From: Microcaldota archaeon
GTDB taxonomy: Archaea > Micrarchaeota > Micrarchaeia > Anstonellales > JAHKLY01
Direction: 5' to 3'
Assembly: GCA_020854825.1 (NCBI GenBank)
Contig: JAHKLY010000001.1
Location: 1-64,000, forward strand
Length of the DNA: 64,000 nucleotides
Below, piece after piece: positions 42,432-60,466 of the stretch. Within the stretch, counting starts at the first letter, position 1; each line of letters opens with the position of its first letter. The notes below the pieces were generated by a model, which was given only the letters and a program-made list of their open reading frames with translations, had not been told where the DNA came from and searched no databases. The position numbers were made by a program, and so were the translations under genes.

Positions 42432-42505
42432 GCCCTTATAGTATAACTTGGATAGAATAGAACCTTGCGGAGGTTAAGATCGGGGTTCAAATCCCCGTAG
42501 GGGCA
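42432..42505 (+). tRNA. tRNA-Arg (anticodon GCG)
   Basis: A 74-nt tRNA without intron. The acceptor GCCCTTA pairs with TAGGGGC, discriminator A. The T arm is CGGGG-TTCAAAT-CCCCG. The anticodon loop TTGCGGA is closed by AACC/GGTT, giving GCG, which reads CGC/CGU. A20 next to G18G19 suits arginine identity. The D stem (GTAT/GAAT) has an A12-A23 mismatch. No CCA is encoded. It is head-to-head (3' to 3') with the tRNA-Gly gene. Confidence 0.9.
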
Positions 42506-42513
42506 TTAATTAG

Positions 42514-42688
42514 TGCGCCTGCCGGGAATCGAACCCGGTTCTCAAGCTTTTTCCAAAAATTATTTTTAGGATTTAAATTTTCGTAGCAACCTGTATTTTT
42601 AAATTTTCTTTTTTGAGTAAAGACCTTTTCTTTTTTAAAAAAAAAGGATTTATGGGAAGCTCGTATCCTACCGGTAGACTACAAGCGC
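42514..42688 (-). tRNA. tRNA-Gly (anticodon CCC) with a 104-nt intron
   Basis: Exon 1 is 42688-42653 and exon 2 is 42548-42514; the mature tRNA is 71 nt. The acceptor GCGCTTG pairs with CAGGCGC, discriminator A. The D arm is GTCTACCGGTAGGAT, the T arm CCGGG-TTCGATT-CCCGG. The intron (42652-42549) is at the canonical 37/38 site, with a strict BHB: outer helix CGAGC/GCTTG, central helix TTCC/GGAA, bulges CA|T and AA|A, inner helix AAAT/ATTT. The loop after splicing is TTCCCAA, anticodon CCC. The 5' end abuts the stop codon of the next gene. Confidence 0.93.
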
Positions 42689-59123: not shown

Positions 59124-59384
59124 TCACCTTTTTATTTCAAACTTGGGTTCATAATTACTTCTTAAAGACTGCAATATTTCAATTATTTCATCTTCTTTTA
59201 ATCTTTTTTTAATTTCATTTATGTTTTGTAATAACAAAGCTACTGTTGAAAAATATAACTTTTCATTGCTTAGTCTTACATTCATAAGTCTTTCATATGC
59301 TTTAGGTTCTAATATTCTATTTATCTTTACTTTTATTTGTTGCTCTTTTCTTATCTTTTCTTGCAGTTTCTCTTTATCTATCAT
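59124..59384 (-). CDS. PDCD5/TFAR19-family DNA-binding protein
   Basis: An 86-aa helical protein, ending in KFEIKR as in archaeal PDCD5 homologues. The core reads [22 protein letters not shown] and [19 protein letters not shown]. The family forms a three-helix bundle and binds DNA; its place beside S19e and L39e is conserved in archaea and suggests a ribosomal or translation-linked role. Its ATG overlaps the rps19e stop by one base. Confidence 0.88.
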
Positions 59385-59800
59385 TATTGTCCCTCTGCAA
59401 CCTGTTTTGCAATATTATCTAGGAATTTTTTCCCTTTACCTGTTATAACTCTGCCTGTTTTTGCTTTTTTTATAAATCCTTGTTTTTCTAATTCTTGTAG
59501 TCCTCTCCTAATTATTGCTCCGCCTGCATCATAATGTTTTGAAGGTCTTCTACCTCTATTTTTTTTTCCTCCATAGTGAGTTCTCAATCTATTAACACCT
59601 ACTGAAGGAGTAGTATATGCCTGTCTCAACAAAGATGCCATTCTAATATACCAAAAGTTTGGTTGATCTGGTCTCCTTTCAACATGAGCTCCAGATTTAA
59701 CATATTTAATAAATTCTGGTCTTTCTATGCCCATCTTTTCCAATTCGTCTGCTGCTTGTTCTATAAGCTTTCCTGGTTGTACATCAAATACAGTTACCAT
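59384..59800 (-). CDS. rps19e: 30S ribosomal protein S19e
   Basis: A 138-aa S19e: VFDVQPGKLIEQAADELEKM, FIKYVKSGAHVERRPDQPN, FWYIRMASLLRQAY, RTHYGGKKNRGRRPSKH and GLQELEKQGFIKKAKTGRVI. It is needed for small-subunit maturation. GAGGTG lies before the ATG at 59800. It heads the S19e-PDCD5-L39e-L31e-eif6-LX-pfdA-ftsY operon. Confidence 0.96.
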   Translation of the reverse strand: MVTVFDVQPGKLIEQAADELEKMGIERPEFIKYVKSGAHVERRPDQPNFWYIRMASLLRQAYTTPSVGVNRLRTHYGGKKNRGRRPSKHYDAGGAIIRRGLQELEKQGFIKKAKTGRVITGKGKKFLDNIAKQVAEGQ

Positions 59801-59814
59801 TCATTTCACCTCAT

Positions 59815-59936
59815 TTCCATTATCTTCTAAGAAACTCAAAATCAGCTGGAAAATCTCAACTGGAAATTGCTTTGTGGATTAAACTCCTAACCACTAACTT
59901 TGCCTGGAATGTATATTCTTATTAAAAGAAGGATAT
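59815..59936 (-). promoter_or_regulatory. leader of the rps19e operon with direct repeats
   Basis: A 120-base gene-free stretch upstream of rps19e. On the minus strand it holds two copies of a short direct repeat, TTTCCAGTTGA and TTTCCAGCTGA, 15 bases apart, and a weak GTGG/CCAC hairpin upstream of them. It contains the operon promoter and could be an autoregulatory mRNA leader, but no known ribosomal-protein leader motif is recognised. Confidence 0.3.
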
Positions 59937-60215
59937 TTAAAGCTTTCTTTCTGTGTCACAAGCTTTGCAAATATAAATATCTGGTAGTTTTGCGCATTTT
60001 TTAATTTCTAGCGTTTTTCCTTTTATCCATAAAGTATGGCATTTCTTACAAAATAGCTTTTTTTGCTCCTTTGTTAAGCGCAAATTAACTTTTGTTCTTA
60101 TTTTATCAACTAATTCTAAATATCGTTTAGATCTTTCAGGATGTTTATCAAACTCCTCTTGCGCTAACTTAAATAGAATTTCAATCCTTTCCTGCGCTAT
60201 TTTTTGTTTATTCAT
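59937..60215 (-). CDS. rnp4: ribonuclease P protein component 4 (Rpp21/Rpr2)
   Basis: A 92-aa protein. The N-terminal two-helix part (AQERIEILFKLAQEEFDKHP, RSKRYLELVDKIRTKV) and zinc ribbon (FCKKCHTLWI, then IYICKACDTER) match RNP4/Rpp21. The fourth ligand pair is CxxC as usual. It binds the specificity domain of RNase P RNA with RNP1. ATG 60215 lies 19 bases from the 3' end of the tRNA-Ile gene, so a joint transcript of tRNA and a tRNA-processing protein is possible. Confidence 0.9.
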   Translation of the reverse strand: MNKQKIAQERIEILFKLAQEEFDKHPERSKRYLELVDKIRTKVNLRLTKEQKKLFCKKCHTLWIKGKTLEIKKCAKLPDIYICKACDTERKL

Positions 60216-60234
60216 TTTTATCACAAATAGAAAA

Positions 60235-60466
60235 TGGGCCAGGGGAGATTTGTTCTACCTGTTTCTTTCTTTTTGGTTGAGATTTTTCTTTCTTTTTAAA
60301 GAAAGAAAAAGGTCATTGAACTCCCGGCCACCGGTTAGCTTAGAGCTATATAATGCCCACAAATTAATGTGCAAACATCATAGGTCATATAAGACCGGCG
60401 CTCCAACCATTTTAGGTCTTGGTTGAAATAATATTTTCAACACAAAGCTGACTAAGCTACTGGCCC
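60235..60466 (-). tRNA. tRNA-Ile (anticodon UAU) with three introns
   Basis: The 232-nt gene gives a 75-nt tRNA after removal of introns at 60449-60410 (D loop, 40 nt), 60387-60337 (37/38, 51 nt) and 60315-60250 (T loop 58/59, 66 nt). Mature arms: acceptor GGGCCAG/CTGGCCC with discriminator A; D stem GCTT/GAGC with loop AGTC|TGGTTG; anticodon stem CCGGT/ACCGG with loop CTTATA|A; T stem GGGAG/CTCCC with loop TTCAA|AT. Central BHB helices: TTAG/CTAA (bulges TC|A, AA|T), CTTA/TAAG (TA|T, CT|A) and GTTC/GAAC (AA|T, relaxed 3' bulge AA|ATC). Intron 3 holds a 12-bp hairpin (TTTTTCTTTCTT/AAGAAAGAAAAA). Confidence 0.9.

Follow-up and report, generated by a model that had tools for sequence, protein, structure and literature searches.

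A tRNA-Ile(UAU) gene with three predicted introns in a Micrarchaeota genome and probable agmatidine-independent AUA decoding across the phylum

Structure and neighborhood of the tRNA-Ile(UAU) gene

The window that we analyzed is a 64-kb stretch, bases 1-64000 of contig 3, of a Micrarchaeota assembly of 828,311 bases that is 97.6% complete. It contains a tRNA-Ile(UAU) gene on the minus strand (60466->60235; Table 1), the strand having been left unstated in the first-pass annotation. Removal of 40 nt from the D loop, 51 nt at 37/38, and 66 nt from the T loop at 58/59 left a 75-nt sequence, GGGCCAGUAGCUUAGUCUGGUUGGAGCGCCGGUCUUAUAAACCGGUGGCCGGGAGUUCAAAUCUCCCCUGGCCCA, in which the four stems were paired and all invariant positions were intact. 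ARAGORN identified this spliced sequence as tRNA-Ile(tat). The same program found no tRNA in the unspliced gene, even when introns were allowed, and scans of the whole window with the Rfam tRNA model and with ARAGORN both missed the gene. We found no other UAU tRNA gene in this genome.

Within 59124-60466, the tRNA is followed on the same minus strand by genes for an RNase P protein, for S19e, and for a PDCD5-like protein, in that order. Inspection of the listed ORFs downstream of tRNA-Ile(UAU) in 18 relatives revealed no evident RNase P neighbor.

Table 1. Positions of the tRNA-Ile(UAU) gene segments and of other features in the window
Feature	Position	Strand	Description
Exon 1	60450..60466	-	Acceptor 5' strand, U8-A9, D-stem 5' strand, and start of D loop; matches intron-free orthologues
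Intron 1, D loop, 40 nt	60410..60449	-	4/4 central helix UUAG/CUAA, bulges UCA and AAU
Exon 2	60388..60409	-	Remaining D arm, anticodon stem 5' strand, C32 to A37
Anticodon UAU (34-36)	60389..60391	-	ARAGORN anticodon tat in the spliced sequence
Intron 2, canonical 37/38, 51 nt	60337..60387	-	Strict bulge-helix-bulge CUUA/UAAG, bulges UAU and CUA
Exon 3	60316..60336	-	A38, anticodon stem 3' strand, variable loop, T-stem 5' strand, UUCAA
Intron 3, T loop 58/59, 66 nt	60250..60315	-	Pyrimidine tract and two purine tracts complementary to it; central helix GUUC/GAAC
Exon 4	60235..60249	-	A59-U60, T-stem 3' strand, acceptor 3' strand, discriminator A73
RNase P protein, Rpr2/Rpp21 family	59937..60224	-	Pfam PF04032, E 2.4e-13; 10 nt downstream of tRNA-Ile(UAU)
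tRNA-Gly(CCC)	42514-42688	-	104-nt intron at 37/38; missed by window scans with ARAGORN and Rfam

The central helices were fully paired (4/4) at all three predicted junctions (UUAG/CUAA, CUUA/UAAG, and GUUC/GAAC) and were accompanied by 3-nt bulges; such pairing arises by chance in 2.4% of random site pairs. The first-pass annotation had described two of the three junctions as strict, those of the D loop and the anticodon loop, and the T-loop junction fits as well if the T stem is slipped by two nucleotides. Intron-free orthologues in related Micrarchaeota have the same 75-nt layout with identical loop and stem lengths and share 53-61 of 75 positions with the spliced product, and because they share this layout, the splice sites are fixed. 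A same-order relative (L197) carries introns at the same three sites. These orthologues and relative, together with the ARAGORN result, uphold the initial description of a tRNA-Ile(UAU) with three introns and a 75-nt cloverleaf. Across the phylum, the gene is conserved with 53-64 of 75 identities. The D-loop site is also occupied in this genome's own tRNA-Ile(GAU) (L014) as well as in L197, and nearly all same-order Ile(UAU) genes have an intron at 37/38.

Splicing enzymes encoded in the genome

The first-pass annotation had predicted that a broad-specificity endonuclease would be needed, and we found an EndA of the epsilon2 type, a single chain of 414 aa with three endonuclease units. Its best PDB match was ARMAN-2 EndA (4fz2; 53% identical, residues 21-414, E 2e-136), and its sequence was closest to the EndAs of Candidatus Micrarchaeota. 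The catalytic residues Y236, H251, and K282 and the bulge-binding residues R275 and W384 are conserved, as are the loop residues Y160 and K161, which have been shown to be required (PMC12397907). The tRNA ligase RtcB is also encoded. The RtcB gene (L260 266-3073, G000:C1) contains an in-frame insert of ~450 aa with intein-like ends (CLTGNT...HNFVANGIIVSN-C). The machinery for splicing relaxed motifs is present in this genome and presumably acts on tRNA-Ile(UAU).

Introns in the other tRNA genes and a shared T-loop element

Our tRNA census combined searches with targeted stretches and yielded 29 modeled genes, 24 automatically and five by hand. These contained at least 43 introns (~1.5 per gene), a count that is a lower bound because detection is most difficult for the most heavily interrupted genes. 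T-loop introns were the commonest class (19 of the 29 genes), with 10 introns at 37/38, 10 in the D loop, three at 53/54, and one at 29/30. Only the initiator tRNA-Met and tRNA-Arg(GCG) were intron-free, and three introns were also present in elongator tRNA-Met (L150) and tRNA-Arg(CCU). All 19 spliced sequences that we tested read as tRNAs. Among the genomes assessed in PMC8450103, the highest intron load is 71 in 46. The tRNA-Arg(GCG) gene (42432-42505) adjoins tRNA-Gly(CCC) on the opposite strand.

T-loop introns resembling that of tRNA-Ile(UAU) occurred in Lys(CUU), Ile(GAU), Ala(CGC), Ser(GCU), and other tRNA genes of this genome. In the introns sharing this plan (60250-60315 and those of L006, L008, L009, L012, L014, L015, L016, and L018), a pyrimidine tract is followed by two purine tracts. 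Each purine tract is complementary to the pyrimidine tract at 11-14 of 13-16 positions, giving two mutually exclusive hairpins. The copies in Ala(CGC), Ser(GCU), and Leu(CAA) were near identical, a likeness that points to recent transposition. In tRNA-Leu(CAA) (L012), the T-loop insert of 98 nt consists of the shared 62-nt intron and ~36 additional nt, possibly two introns in tandem at one site. The pyrimidine-purine-purine element was also observed outside tRNAs but adjoining them (upstream of the L150 tRNA and in the flanks of L019 and L021), once on the opposite strand. We rejected a purine-motif triplex of the pyrimidine tract with the mirror-like purine tracts, as closure of these introns by their flanking pairs requires the second purine tract in ordinary antiparallel pairing. 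We also rejected a repeat spread throughout the genome: within the 64-kb window, tRNA-Ile(UAU) was the only place with this hairpin type, although stray copies were seen next to other tRNA genes.

Probable AUA decoding without agmatidine

AUA accounted for 814 of the 1725 Ile codons (47%) in the long ORFs of the window, in agreement with the first-pass description of AUA as very common, and at this frequency an AUA reader is essential. Both TiaS domains, PF08489 (TiaS_FLD) and PF22641 (TiaS_TCKD), were absent from this genome, with 4/4 archaeal controls positive, and PF08489 was absent from 146/146 Micrarchaeota genomes, 84 of them of high quality. The only CAU tRNAs that we found in this genome were initiator Met (L001) and elongator Met (L150). 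No CAU tRNA-Ile2 was found in the 97.6% complete assembly with Rfam hits and a pattern that requires the D stem through position 37 to be uninterrupted.

We also scanned the same 146 genomes for NAU anticodon arms, with counts taken from the 66 genomes listed. A UAU tRNA was present, with GAU alongside, in at least 49 of these 66 genomes. The genomes listed had one CAU tRNA of the elongator-Met type and never two elongator-context CAU tRNAs in one genome, as seen with a pattern that overlooks CAU tRNAs whose D arm is unusual or that are interrupted by an intron between positions 22 and 37. Neither component of the TiaS/agmatidine system (TiaS and a CAU tRNA-Ile2) was thus found. Because TiaS and CAU tRNA-Ile2 were not found and UAU tRNAs recur across genomes, the proposal that AUA is decoded without agmatidine is supported, and phylum-wide. 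These sequence comparisons support AUA being read by a genomic UAU tRNA as a trait of the phylum sample and not of one species, and the phylum seems to have replaced the usual archaeal agmatidine route by this tRNA. Reading of AUA by a plain UAU anticodon, thought to be rare and limited to two archaea, would then be the normal situation throughout a phylum without TiaS, and dozens of genomes are now available for asking how U34 avoids AUG.

A functional, spliced tRNA as the favored interpretation

We consider it very probable that the locus encodes a functional tRNA-Ile(UAU) whose three introns are cut by the epsilon2-type EndA, whose exons are joined by RtcB, and which reads AUA without TiaS. 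The transcript would carry one intron after C17 in the D loop, another at 37/38 in the anticodon loop, and a third at 58/59 in the T loop. EndA would cut it at its bulge-helix-bulge motifs, and RtcB would join the exons. The mature tRNA would read AUA via its genomic U34, so that neither TiaS nor CAU tRNA-Ile2 would be needed, and tRNA-Ile(GAU) would cover AUU and AUC. Transcription, splicing in vivo, charging with isoleucine, and avoidance of AUG by U34 are steps that we infer for this tRNA.

The gene ranks with the most interrupted tRNA genes found here and is missed by standard finders, features that would also suit a decayed pseudogene left as a relic of intron invasion, with the reading of AUA left to another tRNA or to a CAU tRNA-Ile2 that escaped detection. 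Such decay is very improbable considering the intact stems and invariant positions after splicing, the retention of the gene across the phylum, the absence of TiaS from every genome searched, and the need for a reader of nearly half of the Ile codons. A slimmer chance still is that the segments are not introns and that the RNA works unspliced with long loop insertions. Insertions in the T loop of 19 of 29 tRNA genes make structural tolerance imaginable, but an insert at 37/38 would block decoding, the junctions fit bulge-helix-bulge motifs, a broad-specificity EndA and RtcB are encoded, and intron-free orthologues exist. Predicted joints of this kind can slip, and a true joint at 36/37 or 38/39 would yield an anticodon other than UAU; we give this equally little credence, as intron-free orthologues have the seven-nucleotide anticodon loop CUUAUAA and the strict motif at 37/38 yields the same loop.

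Stepwise intron numbers in relatives

The Ile(UAU) gene of relatives contains from none to four introns. A four-intron tRNA-Ile(UAU) gene (56, 42, 56, and 33 nt) that yields a 75-nt tRNA was found on the minus strand of a same-order relative (L236; G084:C4:19200-20100), with introns in the D loop, at 37/38, at 53/54, and at 58/59 or 59/60. We regard the four as separate introns because each is missing in at least one related genome. The T-loop junction of this gene is relaxed, with 1/4 central pairs for a cut at 58/59 and 3/4 at 59/60 when fitted by hand. The reviews cited here state three introns as the maximum per archaeal tRNA (PMC4033280, PMC4090602), and the four of L236 exceed this figure. 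The Ile(UAU) gene preserves a series of stepwise intron gains, from none through one, two, and three up to the four of one relative, in the setting of a broad-specificity endonuclease.

A conserved module in the anticodon intron

In most related families, the 37/38 intron starts with a 17-nt module at fixed spacing, UGRCNCGYUCURRYACA (families f2, part of f4, f5, f6, f7, f12, f13, part of f15, and f20; carriers include L224, L226, L231, L232, L234, L243, and L256), which ends in ACA or AUA. Nucleotides 6-14 of the module pair with the 3' strand of the D arm (mean 7.2/9 versus ~3.4 at other registers), and nucleotides 2-4 pair with G30-C32. In the module alignment, 88% of cells were paired compared to 34-51% for slid partners. 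Covariation is suggestive, with six double changes versus 1.9 in shuffled alignments, the double changes falling in only two pairs. In folding of 11 module-carrying precursors, the helix between D arm and intron had a mean probability of 0.60-0.99 and the D stem had almost none; the helix is expected to take the place of the D stem in the unspliced RNA. We identified no upper guide pocket or K-turn, and in family f3 and part of f15, ACA occurs at the same place without D-arm pairing. The anticodon intron in the window retains 5/9 D-arm pairs, with the module largely lost.

In yeast, tRNA-Ile(UAU) acquires Psi-A-Psi in an intron-dependent manner. The archaeal anticodon intron might likewise be a cis guide, in which pairing of the module with the D arm places the anticodon in a hairpin loop, with the ACA box after it, and directs Cbf5 to pseudouridylate U34/U36 before splicing, an idea that we put forward as a long shot. 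It is a reasonable one to raise because Cbf5 is present and the Pus1/TruA family is absent from 97/97 genomes. Specifically, the TruA/Pus1/Pus3 family (PF01416) was absent from this genome and from 97/97 Micrarchaeota genomes, with 12/14 control genomes positive, and we rejected a Pus1-like protein as the modifier of tRNA-Ile(UAU) in the phylum. If a cis guide exists, it would be an archaeal counterpart of the yeast pathway, and lineages in which the module has moved or been lost, including the genome of the window, would show its decay. The conserved intron element makes intron-dependent modification of tRNA-Ile(UAU) testable in archaea.

We also observed that the 37/38 introns of elongator tRNA-Met genes (L150, L193, L195, L199, L203, L207, and L208) share UAUGAGU-[AC]UGA. 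This sequence is complementary to the anticodon loop and places C34 five nucleotides from a D-box-like UGA. By analogy with haloarchaeal tRNA-Trp, this intron resembles a guide of the box C/D type that acts in cis to direct Cm34.

Comparison with known systems

The closest known system is ARMAN-2 (Micrarchaeum; PDB 4fz2 and 9w2k) of the same phylum, which has an intron-bearing tRNA-Ile(UAU) and an epsilon2 EndA with the same conserved catalytic and loop residues. In vitro, the pre-tRNA-Ile(UAU) of ARMAN-2 is a substrate that the EndA from this archaeon cleaves (PMC12397907). The present genome differs from ARMAN-2 in being AT-rich and in having many T-loop introns. As in this genome, Nanoarchaeum equitans and Korarchaeum cryptofilum have a UAU anticodon and no CAU tRNA-Ile2 (PMC6000648, PMC8450103), and the Korarchaeum gene contains an intron and resembles its GAU paralogue (PMC6000648, PMC8450103). 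These two archaea have been treated as isolated species, whereas the trait and the loss of TiaS described here span a sample of 146 genomes. The first-pass annotation named UAU tRNA-Ile as a rare alternative reported for Nanoarchaeum and Korarchaeum; it is not limited to these two, given the published ARMAN-2 tRNA (PMC12397907) and its counterparts across the phylum.

An intron in tRNA-Ile(UAU) (ARMAN-2) and tRNAs with three introns were already known, the latter in Thermoproteales (PMC4033280, PMC8450103), and together with the frequency of T-loop introns in this genome and the red algal case below, they make the description of three introns and a T-loop intron as exceptional overstated. What stands out is the trait shared across the phylum, the relative with four introns, and the conserved element of the anticodon intron. 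In the nuclear tRNA-Ile(UAU) of the red alga Cyanidioschyzon merolae, introns have the same D, anticodon, and T layout (PMC9602550), but this organism is a eukaryote with a different endonuclease, and we do not claim shared ancestry of the D and T introns. Thermoproteales tRNAs contain up to three bulge-helix-bulge introns, also at noncanonical sites (Sugahara 2008; Fujishima 2010; via PMC4033280, PMC4090602), and alike introns in different tRNAs suggest transposition there, as they do here. In contrast to the (alpha-beta)2 endonuclease of Thermoproteales, the enzyme in this genome is of the epsilon2 type; most introns here are at T-loop sites, and a single tRNA of one relative contains four.
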